From NCBI RefSeq assembly GCF_900100335.1, contig NZ_FNFE01000001.1, positions 186,001 through 250,000 of the forward strand: DNA of 64,000 nucleotides. Reading direction: 5' to 3'. Shown piece after piece: positions 16,255 to 22,973 of this stretch. The position numbers and the translations under genes are program-made. The notes below the pieces were generated by a model. It was given only the letters and a program-made list of their open reading frames with translations. It made no database searches and had not been told where the DNA came from. The first letter of the stretch is position 1; each line of letters starts with the position of its first letter. The DNA is from Natronorubrum texcoconense. GTDB lineage: Archaea; Halobacteriota; Halobacteria; Halobacteriales; Natrialbaceae.

Positions 16255-17325
16255 ATGTCCGATACCGATCGGTGGGCAGCGGATCGACGAACGGTTTTGA
16301 AAAGTGCCGGGGCGGTGGGGATGGCGGGTCTCGCCGGCTGTACAGGTGGTAGCGACGACTCGAACACGATCTCGTGGGTCATGAACCCCGCGGAGGAGAG
16401 CGTCGACATCGAAACGCAGTACCAGCCGCTGTTCGAGTATCTCGAATCGGAAGCCGACGTCGAGATCGAGGGCATCCAGACGTCCGACTACAGCTCCACC
16501 GTCCTGGAGATGCAGCGGGGAAGCGGCGATTTCGCCGACACGTCCCCGGGCGCCGTCGCTCAGGTACCCGACGACATCGACGTCGTTGGAATGCGTCTCG
16601 CGTTCGGTGCCGAGCAGTACTTCTCGCTCATCACGACGACTCCCGACAGCGACGTCGAGGAGCTTGCGGACCTCGAGGGTGAAGAGATCGCGACCGCGGC
16701 GTCGACGTCGGTCTCCGGGACGCTCGTACCGATGCTGATGCTCGAACAGGCCGGCCTCGACACCGGCGGCGCTCCCGACGGCAACCCCGTCGACTTCGAT
16801 CTGGGAACGCACGATCACGACGGCGCTCGCGAACAGCTCATCAACAACCCGGACGTCGTCGCTGCAGGGACCGGTGCGTTCTCGACGGGGCCGCACGTCC
16901 CCCAGGAGCAGTTCGACGAGATGTCCGAAGACTACGTCGACATCTCCGTCGAGTACGACGACGCCGGCTCTCGAGAGCCGGAGCTACAGCTGCTGGCGGT
17001 GTCGGATCCGATCCCCCGCGCACCGATCGTGGCCCGCGCGGACTGGGACGATCCGATCCGCGAGGAGCTCGAGGAGCTGATGCTCGAGGCCGACGAGGAG
17101 GTCTTCCGACACGACCCGGACGAGCTTGCGGACCAGCTCGGCATCGATCCGGAGATCCTCGACAAGGACGAGGACGAGCTCACGGAGGAAGAGGAGGACG
17201 ACCTCCAGCAGTTCGAGGACCACGAACTCTGGTTCGACGGCATCGAGCCGGCGACGGAAGACGACTACGAACCGATCGTCGACCTCCTCGATGAGCTCGG
17301 GCTCAGCCCCGAGGACGTCGAGTAA
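16255..17325 (+). CDS. phnD: Phosphonate-type ABC importer, substrate-binding lipoprotein
   Basis: The 356-residue protein has a Tat lipoprotein signal (RR 11-12; lipobox ending at Cys29) and then the PhnD pattern: WVMNPAEESVDIETQYQPLFEYLE, a DFADTSPGAVAQV-type ligand loop and a PIPRAPIVARADWDDPI segment near the C terminus. The last third is rich in Glu/Asp. PhnD-family receptors bind phosphonates, phosphite or hypophosphite. No C-P lyase gene is in the window, so the cargo is open. First gene of a three-gene operon. Confidence 0.88.
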   Translation: MSDTDRWAADRRTVLKSAGAVGMAGLAGCTGGSDDSNTISWVMNPAEESVDIETQYQPLFEYLESEADVEIEGIQTSDYSSTVLEMQRGSGDFADTSPGAVAQVPDDIDVVGMRLAFGAEQYFSLITTTPDSDVEELADLEGEEIATAASTSVSGTLVPMLMLEQAGLDTGGAPDGNPVDFDLGTHDHDGAREQLINNPDVVAAGTGAFSTGPHVPQEQFDEMSEDYVDISVEYDDAGSREPELQLLAVSDPIPRAPIVARADWDDPIREELEELMLEADEEVFRHDPDELADQLGIDPEILDKDEDELTEEEEDDLQQFEDHELWFDGIEPATEDDYEPIVDLLDELGLSPEDVE

Positions 17326-17353
17326 AGCGTTGACCGAAACGTCTCAACATAGT

Positions 17354-18133
17354 ATGAGCAAGGTTGTAGTCGACGGACTCACCAAGCGGTACGGAGATGT
17401 CCTCGCATTAGACGATGTCTCGTTCGAAGTACCGGCCGGTGAGTTCGTCATCATTCTCGGTGTGTCGGGGTCGGGGAAGTCGACGCTCTTGCGGTGTATG
17501 TCTGCGTTGACGCAACCGACAGAAGGCGAAGTGCGGATCGAAGGTGAGCCGATGATCGCCCCGCGTCCGGAGGTGGCGATGATTTTCCAACAACACAACA
17601 TTATCGGCGACATGTCGGCGTATTCGAATGCGCTGTCCGGTAGTATGAATCGCAGTTCGTTCCTCGAGAGTCTGTTGCAGCTCCAGCCCGACGAGGAAAA
17701 GTATCGGGCGCTCGACGCGCTCGATACCGTCGGTCTCTTGGACGAGGCCGAACAGAAGGCGCGCCGAATGAGCGGCGGCCAGCAACAGCGGGTCGGGATC
17801 GCCCGCGCGCTGGTTCAGGAACCCGAGGTGTTGCTCGCCGACGAACCCGTCGCGAGTCTCGACCCCGGAAGCGCACAGGAAGTGATGCGCTACCTCCAGT
17901 CGAGTGCGACCGAACGGGAGCTGTCGACGTTCATCAGCCTCCATCAGGTCAACATCGCTCGCAAGTTCGGCGAGCGGTTCATCGGCCTTCGCGACGGTGA
18001 GAAGGTGTTCGACGGCTACCGCGACGAGTTGACGATCGACGCCATCGACGAAATCTACGGCGACATCGACACCGAAGGCATGTTCGTCGGCGTCGACTCC
18101 TCCGACGAGAGCGGATCGGAGGTGGCACCGTGA
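17354..18133 (+). CDS. phnC: Phosphonate-type ABC importer, ATP-binding protein
   Basis: The 259-residue ATPase has Walker A GVSGSGKS (36-43), the signature [15 protein letters not shown] and Walker B VLLADEPVASLD. The motif MIFQQHNIIGDMSAYSNALSG is typical of PhnC. Start ATG 17354 follows phnD by 28 bp; the longer open frame upstream is a shadow of phnD. Its stop overlaps the GTG start of phnE. Confidence 0.92.
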   Translation: MSKVVVDGLTKRYGDVLALDDVSFEVPAGEFVIILGVSGSGKSTLLRCMSALTQPTEGEVRIEGEPMIAPRPEVAMIFQQHNIIGDMSAYSNALSGSMNRSSFLESLLQLQPDEEKYRALDALDTVGLLDEAEQKARRMSGGQQQRVGIARALVQEPEVLLADEPVASLDPGSAQEVMRYLQSSATERELSTFISLHQVNIARKFGERFIGLRDGEKVFDGYRDELTIDAIDEIYGDIDTEGMFVGVDSSDESGSEVAP

Positions 18134-19224
18134 GCCACCCCGACGCATCCGACGACAACGAGGCCGAGACACCCGACGAAAGCGACGTCGACGCGGTCGT
18201 TTCGACCGACGGCGGGACCTCACCGGGTGACGCCGCAGGCGGACTGCAAACCGACGAGCGACTGACCGAGAAGTTCGAGAGCATCCGACAGGCGAGGCGA
18301 CGCCGGGCGATCGGTGGCGGTGTGGTTTTGGCCTTCGTCGGGTTCATCTTCGTACAGGGGCTCAACGCGATCGAGATCTTCACCGAGTATCTGAACTGGG
18401 GCTTCTTCGGCGAATCTCTGCGAAACTTCTTCCCGATGCGGGAGTACTTCGGCACCATTCCGTTCGTCGACGTCGGGCGGTACTTCGCCTACATTCGCGA
18501 CGAGAACCTCCTGTTCAACCCCGAATTCGGCGGATTTATCGACGGGCTCGGTATCTTCGCGATCTTCGGTGAGGCCGGCATTACGCTCGCGATGGGCGTC
18601 GTTGGAACCATCCTCGGCCTGCCGTTCGCGCTGCTGTTCGGCGTCCTCGGCTCGGAGCGAGTGACACCGTTCCCGTTTAACTTCATCTTCCGCGGGACGA
18701 TGTCGTTTATCCGCTCGATTCCGGCGCTCGTCTGGACGCTGATCTTCATCCCGCTCGCCGGTCTCGGCCCCGTCGCCGCGACGCTGGCGATTATGGTCGA
18801 CACCATCGGAAACCTCGGTCGGCTGTTCGTCGACGAACTCGAGGAGATCTCGGACGGGCCGATCGAGGCGATGGAGACGACCGGCGCGAGCAGACCCCAG
18901 ACCATCGTCTTCGGGATGTTGAGCCAGGTCAAAACGTCCTTTATCGCCTGGACGCTGTACATCCTCGAGATCAACGTCCGGATCGCGGTCACCGTCGGCG
19001 TCTACGGCGCCGGCGGACTCGGACAGGTCGTCGAGGTCCAGCAGAACCTGCTCAACTGGGCGAACATGATGGCGACGCTGCTGTGTATCTTCCTGCTCAT
19101 CATCACCGTCGAACTGTTCAGCCAACGCCTGCGCGCCCGGCTTCGCTCCGACGAGGAGAAGATGGGCTGGCGGGAGCTGATCTTCGGCTTCCCCAACCGG
19201 ATGGCCGAATCGGCGATGAAGTAG
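18130..19224 (+). CDS. phnE: Phosphonate-type ABC importer, permease
   Basis: The 364-residue permease starts at GTG 18130, overlapping the phnC stop by 4 bp (GTGA). It has an acidic cytoplasmic N terminus of about 55 residues, longer than bacterial PhnE, then about six helices. The EAA-type loop EAMETTGASRPQTIVFGML is as in PhnE, and GAGGLGQVVEV near residue 295 is typical of the family. It forms the channel for the PhnC-PhnD system. Confidence 0.9.
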   Translation: MSHPDASDDNEAETPDESDVDAVVSTDGGTSPGDAAGGLQTDERLTEKFESIRQARRRRAIGGGVVLAFVGFIFVQGLNAIEIFTEYLNWGFFGESLRNFFPMREYFGTIPFVDVGRYFAYIRDENLLFNPEFGGFIDGLGIFAIFGEAGITLAMGVVGTILGLPFALLFGVLGSERVTPFPFNFIFRGTMSFIRSIPALVWTLIFIPLAGLGPVAATLAIMVDTIGNLGRLFVDELEEISDGPIEAMETTGASRPQTIVFGMLSQVKTSFIAWTLYILEINVRIAVTVGVYGAGGLGQVVEVQQNLLNWANMMATLLCIFLLIITVELFSQRLRARLRSDEEKMGWRELIFGFPNRMAESAMK

Positions 19225-19411
19225 CGACGGTCAGCCATCCACACCGTTTCGGGAACTCGTTTTCTTCGGCGTTGTTTTCCTTCGTGTGGTCCGATAGATT
19301 GCTGTTCTCTGTGCGTGAGCCGGGAGTTTGCTCTCACGTTGGATTCCTCGGGATTTCGCGAAGACTGCGCGGATGGAAACCCACTTGCCGCTCGACTCCC
19401 CATCTGCAGCT

Positions 19412-20062
19412 ATGAATGCGACCCAGCAATCTCTCGCGTCCGTCGTCATCGTCGACTACGGACTGGGGAACCTGCGCAGCGTCACCCGCGGTCTCGAGCG
19501 TGCGGGTGCCGACGTCGAGATCACCGACGATGTCGAGGCCTTCGCCGCGGCCGACGGTGTCGTTCTCCCCGGCGTCGGGGCGTTCCGCGAGGGCGTCGAG
19601 AACGCCGATCCGCTCCGAGAGGACCTCCTCGAGGTCGCCGAGTCCGGCACCCCGCTGTTCGGTATCTGTCTCGGCATGCAGATGCTGCTGACGACCAGCG
19701 AGGAGGGCGAGAACGACGGCGAGTCGGCCGTGCAAGGGCTGGACCTGATTCCGGGCACCAACGTCCGATTCGCGGAGGGCCAGAAAGTGCCCCACATGGG
19801 CTGGAACGAACTGAACGTCGAACGCGACCACCCCCTGGTCGAGGGCGTGGATGGAGAGTACGCCTACTTCGTCCACTCCTACTACGCCGCGCCTGATGAC
19901 GATGATGCGACGGTGGCGACGACCGACTACGAACTCGAGTTCCCCTCGATCGTCGCCAACGAGGACGGAAACGTCTTCGGCACCCAGTTCCACCCCGAAA
20001 AGAGCGGCGAGACGGGACTGCAGATTCTGCGGAACTTCGTCGAGATCTGCGCCCAAGAGTGA
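19412..20062 (+). CDS. hisH: Imidazole glycerol phosphate synthase, glutaminase subunit HisH
   Basis: The 216-residue protein has VVIVDYGLGNLRSV at the N terminus and the triad Cys86 (FGICLGMQML), His194 and Glu196 (QFHPEKS). HisH supplies ammonia to HisF for the fifth step of histidine synthesis and AICAR release. I placed the start at ATG 19412; the frame reaches 28 codons further upstream but homologues start near VVIVDYG. It stands alone here, without other his genes, as in many haloarchaea. It is the left neighbour of the replication origin. Confidence 0.94.
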   Translation: MNATQQSLASVVIVDYGLGNLRSVTRGLERAGADVEITDDVEAFAAADGVVLPGVGAFREGVENADPLREDLLEVAESGTPLFGICLGMQMLLTTSEEGENDGESAVQGLDLIPGTNVRFAEGQKVPHMGWNELNVERDHPLVEGVDGEYAYFVHSYYAAPDDDDATVATTDYELEFPSIVANEDGNVFGTQFHPEKSGETGLQILRNFVEICAQE

Positions 20063-20227: not shown

Positions 20228-20251
20228 CACACCCCACGGTGCCGCTGTATG
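20228..20251 (-). repeat. Inverted origin recognition box
   Basis: Its reverse complement matches 20573-20596 (direct box 2) at 24 of 24 positions. It is the only box in the opposite orientation. Confidence 0.8.
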
Positions 20252-20540
20252 GCTGCGGGAGATCGTTTCTTCTTCGCGTATTCGCCAGGATCGGTAGAAC
20301 CAGTCGGAACAGTTCTCGAACGTATATCGCTCTCGGAACGTCACTACTAAATACTAGTCCTGTGTCACCGACCACTGAGAGTATTGCACGCGGAGCGACG
20401 CCGTCGGTCTTGAACGCGGGTTCGCCGTTCGAGTCGAACTGAACCGTTCTCTTCGCTGGTTTGTATCCGACCGTGACGGATGCTGTGCCGGGTTTTCCAC
20501 GATCCAACGAGGAATTCACCACCCCACATTCCTCCACACC

Positions 20541-21056
20541 GATACAGCGGCACTCCGGGGTGTGTGACCCGACATACAGCGGCACCGTGGGGTGTGAAAC
20601 TATCGGTTCGGCTGCTGTCGAACCCCGTTCGCGCTCATACAGCGGAATTACGGTTTCGCCTCGAGCGGTCCCGACTTTCCTCGTCTATCCCTCGTGGGGG
20701 CTGGCCAGGAGTCGGCTGACGTTGAAACTCAGCAGTACTCCGGAATCGAACCACCACGATACAGCGGCACTCCGCGGTGGTCCCTCCCACAATTTCGCCG
20801 CACCACGACTGCTATCGCCACGATACAGCGGCACTCCGCGGTTGTCGTCGACCCGATACAGCGGAACCGCGGAGTCCGATACGGTTACTGGCAATCGGCT
20901 GCTATACAGCGGAATTGCGGGGTTCGAACGCATTGATACAGCGGAAACGAGGGGTTCAACAGAGCTGATACAGCGGCATCGAGGGGTGTTCGTTACCGTT
21001 CTGAGCAGGGTGAGAGCACCAATAGCATGCTATACAGCGGCAACTAGGTTCCGAAC
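20541..21056 (+). repeat. Array of ten direct origin boxes plus one degenerate copy, phased at about 32 bp
   Basis: TACAGCGG occurs at 20543, 20575, 20638, 20760, 20824, 20857, 20905, 20937, 20969 and 21033. A degenerate copy (CTCAGCAGTACTCCGG) starts at 20728, exactly 32 bp before the fourth clear box. The steps are 32, 63, 90, 32, 64, 33, 48, 32, 32 and 64 bp, mostly multiples of 32, about three helical turns. The sequence after the head falls into two forms, CACTCCGCGGTG-like and AAACGAGGGGTT-like. Confidence 0.85.
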
Positions 21057-21066
21057 AGTTAAGTCG
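21056..21066 (+). promoter_or_regulatory. Probable orc1 promoter element next to the last origin box
   Basis: AACAGTTAAGT lies 28-38 nt upstream of ATG 21094 and directly beside the box at 21033, so Orc1 binding would compete with transcription factors here. Confidence 0.35.
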
Positions 21067-21093
21067 CGACTGTGTGATGTACGTGATAGCTGA

Positions 21094-22293
21094 ATGTCGG
21101 ATTCGATGGACTACTTCGGAAGCGAGAACGAGATCTTTCAGAACAAGGAACTGCTGCAGGTCTCGCACCTTCCCGACGGCGATCGCATTATCGGCCGCGA
21201 GGACGAACTAACGAACCTCGCGAACGCGATCAAACCGGCGACGCGGGGTAACACGCCCAACAACGTCCTCGTCTACGGCAAGACGGGCACCGGAAAATCG
21301 CTGTGCTCGAAGTTCATCACGAACCAGGCCGTCGAACGCGCGAAACGGGACGACGTGACGATCGGCGTCGCCTACGTCGACTGCCTGCAGGAGTCGACGG
21401 AGACCCAGGCCGTCCAGTCCGCCGGGCACCAACTCAACGAGCAGGACGTGACGGGCATCTCGATTCCCCACTCGGGGCTGAGCACGGCCGAGTACTACCG
21501 CCGACTGTGGGAAATCGTCGACAGCCGGTACGACGTCGCGCTCATCATCTTGGACGAGGTCGACAAGATCGAAGACGACGATATCCTGATGCAGCTCTCG
21601 AGAGCGGTCGAGTCCGGCAAACTCACCGAGAGCACGGTCGGCGTCATCGGCATCTCGAACAAGGTCCGGTACAAGGATTCCCTCGACGAGCGCATCAAAT
21701 CCAGTCTCTGCGAGCGCGAGTACGTCTTCTCGCCGTACGACGCGACCCAGATTCGAGAGATTCTGCGCTCGCGCGCCGACGCGTTCCACGAGGGCGTCCT
21801 CGAGGACGGCGTCGTCCCCCGGGTCGCCGCACTCGCGGCCCGCGAACACGGTGACGCGCGCAAGGCGATCGACATCCTCCGGTTTGCGGGGGAGATCGCC
21901 GAGGAGAACGACTTAGAGCGCGTCACGGAGTCCTGCGTCGATCAGGCTCACGAACGCGAAGAGACGAGCCGACTCGCCGAACTCATCTCCAAGAGTCCGA
22001 GCCACGCGAAACTCGTTCTCGAGGCCATGGCGTTGCGCACCCAGCAGACGGGCAACGACGACGCGCCGGTGACGACCAACGAGGTGTACGACCTCTACAA
22101 ACGGCTCTGTGAGCGAGACCAGTCCGAGCACCTGAAACTCCGCCGCGTCAGGGATATCCTCTCGGAACTCGAGTTCCTTTCGATTATTGACCAGGAGCGC
22201 AAGTGGGCCGGGAAGGGGAAGGGAAACTACATGGAGAACCGGCTGATCGACGATCCGGAGGTCATCATCGCCGCGTGTAACGAATCGGACTAG
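21094..22293 (+). CDS. orc1: Orc1/Cdc6 replication initiator
   Basis: The 399-residue AAA+ protein has Walker A GKTGTGKS (62-69), Walker B ALIILDEVDK (149-158), sensor I GVIGISNKV and the C-terminal winged helix (about 295-399) with YKRLCERDQSEHLKLRRVRDIL. It binds origin boxes and loads the MCM helicase. Lying directly beside a repeat array, it is probably the cognate initiator of this origin. Haloarchaea often carry many orc1 paralogues; which one this is cannot be told from the window. Confidence 0.95.
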   Translation: MSDSMDYFGSENEIFQNKELLQVSHLPDGDRIIGREDELTNLANAIKPATRGNTPNNVLVYGKTGTGKSLCSKFITNQAVERAKRDDVTIGVAYVDCLQESTETQAVQSAGHQLNEQDVTGISIPHSGLSTAEYYRRLWEIVDSRYDVALIILDEVDKIEDDDILMQLSRAVESGKLTESTVGVIGISNKVRYKDSLDERIKSSLCEREYVFSPYDATQIREILRSRADAFHEGVLEDGVVPRVAALAAREHGDARKAIDILRFAGEIAEENDLERVTESCVDQAHEREETSRLAELISKSPSHAKLVLEAMALRTQQTGNDDAPVTTNEVYDLYKRLCERDQSEHLKLRRVRDILSELEFLSIIDQERKWAGKGKGNYMENRLIDDPEVIIAACNESD

Positions 22294-22616: not shown

Positions 22617-22973
22617 TCAGAGCAGTTCTCTGACTTCGGAGTACCACATGTCGTGATAGTCAACGTGGCCAACGCGACGGGCGATGGCGACGGCGAGGGC
22701 GTGCCAGCACTGCTCGGTCGGATCGTCGGCGTCGAGGTTGTACTCACTGTCCTTGCAGGTACAGCCGCCGTCCTCGACGATGTACTCGTCGTCGTAGCCG
22801 ACGACGATCGTGAAATCGCGGTAGGCCTTCACCCGGTTCTCCCCGACGGCTTCGATGGCGCGGACCCCACGGTCGCCGTGAATCTGGGAGATCTGCTCGA
22901 CGATCTCGGGCGTGAGTTCGCCCGTCTCCTCGAGGTCTGCCTGCCATCGCTCGACTGGGTTGGCCTCCGGCAC
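22617..22973 (-). CDS. SWIM zinc-finger protein
   Basis: The 118-residue protein has the SWIM signature CxCx15CxH: C71, C73, C89 and H91 (CTCKDSEY...QCWH). SWIM domains bind DNA or proteins and occur with recombination and replication factors. The N terminus is a helical region beginning MPEANPVERWQADLEE. It converges on orc1, with its stop 323 bp from that of orc1. Location beside the origin initiator makes a role in replication or repair plausible but this is inference only. Confidence 0.85.
   Translation of the reverse strand: MPEANPVERWQADLEETGELTPEIVEQISQIHGDRGVRAIEAVGENRVKAYRDFTIVVGYDDEYIVEDGGCTCKDSEYNLDADDPTEQCWHALAVAIARRVGHVDYHDMWYSEVRELL

Follow-up and report, generated by a model that had tools for sequence, protein, structure and literature searches.

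In the usual description, an archaeal origin has a small number of ORBs around an unwinding element, and each ORB binds a single Orc1 monomer, higher-order assembly not being generally required. The described haloarchaeal origins next to orc/cdc6 genes (Wu et al. 2012, PMC3528665; Haloarcula hispanica oriC1, PMC3936714) share with the locus analyzed here an adjoining initiator gene, inverted boxes around an AT-rich stretch, a G-string ORB, and a family-specific pairing of box and Orc1. An ORB reported for these origins, TAACAGCGGAAACAGTGGGGTGGGGGGGT, is close to the box described below (PMC3528665 and PMC3936714), and the accessible parts of both reports describe no spacing, phasing, or repeated three-box module. 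H. hispanica oriC2D resembles our locus in having about eleven ORBs within 0.5 to 0.7 kb beside an initiator gene, and it controls initiation by box number (PMC3936714). In Natrinema J7, oriC4 has eight ORBs, and its plasmid gave no transformants (PMC5350488). Literature searches of openly accessible main texts returned nothing relevant on ORB spacing or helical phasing.

Boxes upstream of an orc1/cdc6 gene

The window (the whole stretch of DNA analyzed, 64,000 nucleotides) is part of a 4.64-Mb Natrialbaceae genome. It contains an orc1/cdc6 gene whose product is a homologue of 2V1U and 2QBY, archaeal proteins of solved structure, with ten exact boxes packed into 0.5 kb on its 5′ side. The features of the locus are as follows.

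19328 to 20062, hisH, 5′ of the box array
20228 to 20251, minus strand, inverted box R, partner of D1, with its G-string facing outward
20307 to 20356, most AT-rich 50 bp between R and D1 (58% A+T), candidate DNA unwinding element by composition
20542 to 20561 (head 20543), plus strand, distal module box D1; in relatives, its extended consensus, GGGGTGTGTGTCTC, mirrors the R box
20574 to 20593 (head 20575), plus strand, distal module box D2, 32 bp from D1
20637 to 20656 (head 20638), plus strand, distal module box D3, without GGGG, 63 bp from D2
20727 to 20746, plus strand, degenerate middle box, one 32-bp step ahead of its downstream neighbor (matrix score 11.4, 99.2 percentile in the region)
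20759 to 20924 (heads 20760, 20824, 20857, and 20905), plus strand, middle boxes, which vary among species
20936 to 20955 (head 20937), plus strand, proximal module box P1
20968 to 20987 (head 20969), plus strand, proximal module box P2, 32 bp from P1
21032 to 21051 (head 21033), plus strand, proximal module box P3, lacking GGGG, 64 bp from P2, and 61 bp ahead of the ATG
21051 to 21063, plus strand, conserved element CCGAACAGTTAAG adjoining P3, presumably the BRE/TATA of the orc1 promoter
21094 to 22293, plus strand, orc1/cdc6 initiator gene (399 aa; TIGR02928 match, E value 1e-125)
22617 to 22973, minus strand, small conserved gene 3′ of orc1

The ten exact TACAGCGG heads, all on the plus strand, lie where an earlier sequence-only reading of this DNA had placed them. 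Across the entire window and both strands, TACAGCGG has 15 matches, compared with 1.1 expected from shuffles. The degenerate copy claimed in that reading is also real: ACTCAGCAGTACTCCGGAAT, at 20727 to 20746, agrees with the typical full box, ATACAGCGGCACTCCGGGGT, at 14 of 20 positions. A total of 321 boxes give the G-string consensus ATACAGCGGCA-n4-GGGGT, and the strict 19-base consensus, TACAGCGGMANNNNGGNNT, is absent elsewhere in the 4.64-Mb genome. An open reading frame that spans the array on the plus strand (20461 to 21093) was taken as a chance product, since 32-bp steps pass through all three frames.

Both hisH and the small gene at 22617 to 22973 flank the orc1 orthologue in most named relatives. 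Farther 5′ of hisH and the origin, window positions 16255 to 19224 hold phosphonate-type ABC transporter genes (PhnD-like binding protein, ATPase, and PhnE permease). Two smaller motifs accompany the distal boxes: a CGTTTCGAGTCGAC-like motif that relatives share ~30 bp before D1, with a decayed counterpart at 20518 to 20531 of the window, and a CTATAGAAAnnCTTTT element between D2 and D3 that is common to relatives and decayed in the window. Both could be bound by another origin factor.

An inverted ORB pair around an AT-richer stretch

The sequence-only reading had overlooked box R, which forms a 24-of-24 inverted repeat with 20573 to 20596. An inverted box is found 286 to 981 bp 5′ of D1 in 59 of 61 relatives. 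Among 59 species, the interval between R and D1 is richer in A+T than the box array (0.463 versus 0.418; P = 2e-10); in the window itself, the enrichment is modest, reaching 58% A+T at best over 50 bp. Three features of an orc1/cdc6-associated haloarchaeal origin are present, namely, an adjacent initiator gene, family-specific G-string ORBs, and inverted ORBs around an AT-rich stretch. No GC-skew inflection was detected at the locus in 1.2 Mb of a close relative's chromosome, where skew was uninformative. The earlier identification of the repeats as origin boxes agrees with their ORB-type consensus with G-string, the inverted partner, the adjacent Orc1/Cdc6 gene, and the presence of the module in all 19 genomes that have the orthologue. 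Judged from these sequence features, the locus is supported as a putative orc1/cdc6-linked haloarchaeal origin of ordinary layout, with the inverted ORB pair R/D1 around the AT-richer stretch as its core.

Two copies of a three-box module across Natrialbaceae

We scored the upstream regions of 61 nonredundant Natrialbaceae orthologues with a 20-column matrix. Some of these (from L074 to L100) were fetched because they hold the pattern and so add diversity rather than independent frequency, and one added locus (L095) has a doubtful assigned start codon. The 39 loci fetched by protein similarity alone gave the same picture, with the proximal module in 39 of 39 and a complete distal module in 34 of 39.

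Throughout the 61 regions, the array consists of two copies of one module, box-32-box-63-box, the distal copy lying beside the candidate unwinding region and the proximal copy near the ATG. D1 and D2 are 32 to 34 bp apart in 61 of 61 regions, and P1 and P2 are 32 to 33 bp apart in 61 of 61. The longer step measures 63 to 64 bp from D2 to D3 in 54 of 55 regions (68 bp in the other) and 63 to 65 bp from P2 to P3 in all 61, and P3 lies 57 to 62 bp from the ATG in relatives. The module spacings vary by just 1 to 2 bp, while the spacer sequences are largely randomized; across the proximal 63-bp gap, 546 species pairs are at shuffled-level identity, yet their lengths never differ by more than 2 bp. 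The sequence-only reading had named conservation of the 32-bp step in close relatives as its own refutation test; in the modules, the step is conserved. Other distances are variable in the 61 relatives (R to D1, 286 to 981 bp; D2 to P1, 46 to 682 bp), and box number per region ranges from 5 to 20 among species. The middle boxes differ among species in number and spacing and are not clearly phased.

The degenerate copy had been read as a sign that spacing is kept even where the sequence has decayed. This holds for the distal module of several relatives, where relics of the third box still stand at +63; in the Natrinema hispanicum group, for example, D3 has decayed and the relic ATACAGgaGAAA remains there. 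It does not extend to the other empty 32-bp slots of the window, which contain no detectable relic. Hidden boxes in the middle of the 63- to 64-bp gaps or in other empty slots were suggested by eye and unsupported by matrix scores.

Individual relatives show further arrangements. Natrarchaeobius chitinivorans (L055) has the same origin with 20 boxes over ~0.8 kb, and its middle steps are mostly 33 to 36 bp, which are not whole turns. On a 3.8-kb contig of another relative (L098, genome G020; 2180 to 2470) that lacks orc1, the entire three-box module is tandemly duplicated, 121 bp apart; the module can therefore duplicate as a unit. At L085 (genome G113), the sequence after the distal module, AAACCCCGCCCTTCAGGGCGGGG, is similar to the terminal hairpin of IS605/IS1341-type elements, and an insertion may separate the distal from the proximal module. 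In Natrinema versiforme JCM 10478 (L062), the start region of this orc1 copy seems to be disrupted, with no start codon in frame at the usual position, and the boxes remain.

Distribution and replicons

The three-box pattern was found in 66 of 125 Natrialbaceae genomes, mostly in two copies. The genomes sampled from other families lacked it, and the reversed pattern, used as a control, gave no matches. It was present in 19 of 19 genomes with an orthologue at the cutoff versus 2 of 42 without one (Fisher P = 7e-14). One of these two exceptions corresponds to a record with a partial, weaker orc1 match (L069), and in the other the pattern is on a 3.8-kb contig. Complete plasmids of 294 to 768 kb carry an Orc1 that is 81 to 87% identical, with the array checked directly in Natronosalvus halobius. 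Plasmid carriage of Orc1 together with the array fits a replicator role. Ten viral-contig matches, considered as possible viral carriage of the module, were coding sequences or unrelated repeats without the G-string.

A search of the own genome for titration sites elsewhere found no pair of boxes at 29 to 35 bp outside the locus, and 1.2 Mb of a close relative's chromosome held one distant single box. The other origins of the genome were viewed through the flanks of its Orc1 paralogues. Among these flanks, a second dense array, made of a different plus-strand box (AACGACGGAAACGAGGGGG), lies 3′ of another orc1 paralogue (L003, contig C6; 2798 to 3110), a position like that of oriC2D. Its steps are 31, 28, 123, 31, 28, and 54 bp, with a 182-bp unit of three boxes duplicated.

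Helical phasing within modules

Steps between exact boxes in the window are 32, 63, 122, 64, 33, 48, 32, 32, and 64 bp. Seven of these nine differ from a multiple of 32 by at most 1 bp (P ~2e-5 when boxes are placed at random with a minimum step of 29 bp). A helical test at 10.5 bp on the window array alone gave a weak signal (P = 0.08 for steps and 0.39 for absolute positions) since not all steps stay in register. With a turn of 10.5 bp, the 90-bp step (to the degenerate box) and the 48-bp step amount to ~8.6 and ~4.6 turns, and the boxes therefore form three groups on different faces of the helix.

A broader view comes from a wider set comprising distant Orc1 relatives in Haladaptatus, Halorussus, Haloarcula, Halorubrum, and others, together with a Natrialbaceae paralogue family. 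Their box is identical or differs by one base, and the steps near the gene measure 21 to 22, 42 to 46, 63 to 64, 84 to 86, and 103 to 106 bp. The best period within 8 to 14 bp is 10.3 (about 10.3 to 10.4; R = 0.56; P = 0.0005 versus jittered steps). This P value is approximate, since similar steps were collapsed by clade into 38 classes by a grouping of our own that removes relatedness in part. Out-of-phase steps also occur in some relatives (35 to 37, 53, 67, 72 to 76, 94, 100, and 113 bp). That lineages use different whole numbers of turns is predicted neither by a single inherited spacing nor by a steric minimum. No step below 29 bp occurred in the first 40 regions, and a steric minimum was considered as the cause of the 32-bp step; Haladaptatus and Halorussus, whose boxes abut at 21 bp, led to its rejection.

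The sequence-only reading had described boxes phased at about 32 bp over half a kilobase, a spacing that would put Orc1 proteins on the same face of the helix. Steps near whole turns in relatives support same-face phasing within the two three-box modules, whereas the 48- and 90-bp steps of the window break register, and the claim does not hold for the entire half kilobase. Spacing of the kind expected at a phased initiator assembly site is found in the modules and in the wider family and is not clearly present among the middle boxes. The comparative data thus support helical phasing, but within modules.

The third box and the presumed orc1 promoter

The third box of each module differs from the others in its G-string. 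GGGG occurs in 72 to 98% of D1, D2, P1, P2, and middle boxes, in 6% of D3, and in none of 61 P3 boxes; in the wider relatives also, the promoter-adjacent box is without GGGG in 31 of 31. Solved complexes place the AAA+ domain in contact with the G-string (PMC3936714), and boxes that lack it would therefore be expected to bind more weakly. D3 and P3 are accordingly predicted to be weaker Orc1 sites. The CCGAA-n-GTTAAG element directly after P3 occupies a conserved position (−43 to −31 relative to the ATG) in 39 orthologues and is a plausible BRE/TATA of a leaderless haloarchaeal promoter.

Proposed mechanism and alternatives

Fixed spacings with randomized spacers in some sixty species suggest that Orc1 forms an ordered row in two places, the origin and the promoter of its own gene. 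The reading we favor, and consider fairly probable, is that the locus is an origin linked to orc1 and holds two phased modules for Orc1 assembly, the first at the origin core and the second at the presumed orc1 promoter. Each module comprises two full ORBs 32 bp apart (~3 turns) and an ORB without a G-string 63 to 64 bp farther on (6 turns). Orc1 monomers would occupy a single face of the DNA at each module and work jointly as an ordered row, with the weaker third box filling last. The Orc1 level that completes the origin complex would then also cover the orc1 promoter, linking initiation to initiator supply through autoregulation. The middle boxes may provide adjustable extra capacity, for loading or titration. 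Against this reading stand the weak 10.5-bp signal of the window array alone, the out-of-phase middle boxes and steps of some relatives, and the absence of a GC-skew inflection; higher-order initiator assembly is also, according to a review, no general prerequisite at archaeal origins (PMC6742236).

A further claim, which we hold only tentatively and would not bet on, is that an ordered, phase-dependent Orc1 multimer on the three-site module, at both the origin core and the orc1 promoter, might constitute one nucleoprotein switch for initiation and initiator synthesis, and that such a switch, made with an ORC-type protein, might be the archaeal equivalent of the DnaA circuit.

It is also possible, though unlikely, that the like-oriented boxes act as a sink for Orc1 beside its gene, so that their number matters and their spacing is incidental or set by packing. 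There is precedent in oriC2D, which lowers oriC2 activity, probably by binding Cdc6E (PMC3936714), and the range of 5 to 20 boxes among species is what a tunable sink predicts. However, packing cannot set a 32-bp step when boxes in Haladaptatus and Halorussus abut at 21 bp, and a pure sink requires neither a 63-bp spacing kept to 1 bp, nor a third box without a G-string, nor a fixed distance to the ATG. Titration is still plausible as the role of the middle boxes.

The two modules might instead answer to separate constraints, the distal one serving the origin and the proximal one being an ordinary orc1 operator, with similar geometry left by an old duplication and no shared assembly. P3 is indeed anchored to the ATG and to the promoter-like element, the two copies have dissimilar spacers, and the tandem copy at L098 attests to module duplication. 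A mere duplicate, however, would not keep 32 and 63 bp in both places family-wide with randomized spacers, and slot 3 departs from the other slots alike in both copies; we consider this reading improbable. Least likely is that the 32-bp steps are a relic of slippage, the tandem duplication of a 32-bp unit without functional phasing: two boxes at a distance of 64 bp share 97% identity over 29 nucleotides and one relative has 20 boxes at 33 to 36 bp, as slippage would yield, but spacer lengths are fixed despite shuffled-level identity among species, empty slots other than that at 20728 hold no relics, and sister lineages use other whole-turn steps, so that the 61-species comparison disfavors it for the modules while it may apply to the middle boxes.

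Comparison with known systems

The sequence-only reading had called so many boxes unusual, which overstates the case, as oriC2D of H. hispanica has 11 ORBs in 722 bp (PMC3936714). The window likewise has a dense ORB cluster beside an initiator gene, but upstream rather than downstream of it. OriC2D lies 3′ of cdc6E and is without origin activity, whereas the boxes of the window include a putative origin core and the presumed orc1 promoter and are partly phased.

The origin layout, the ORB, the G-string, the pairing of box and initiator, and dense ORB clusters are already known. Not described in the accessible literature are the two-copy module with near whole-turn spacing, the differentiated third box, and the family-wide periodicity. 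Spacing kept family-wide at the base-pair level, together with other near whole-turn solutions in sister lineages, provides evolutionary evidence for face-specific joint action of Orc1. Use of the module in two places, the origin and the promoter of the initiator gene itself, would offer a concrete and easily tested hypothesis on the control of archaeal initiation.

In bacteria, oriC and the dnaA promoter carry ordered, oriented arrays of DnaA boxes, so that boxes also stand at the initiator's own promoter. Autoregulation in the DnaA system is mentioned in the H. hispanica work (PMC3936714). The box and the initiator are unrelated in the two systems, and the likeness of the window to the DnaA system is one of working, not of membership.
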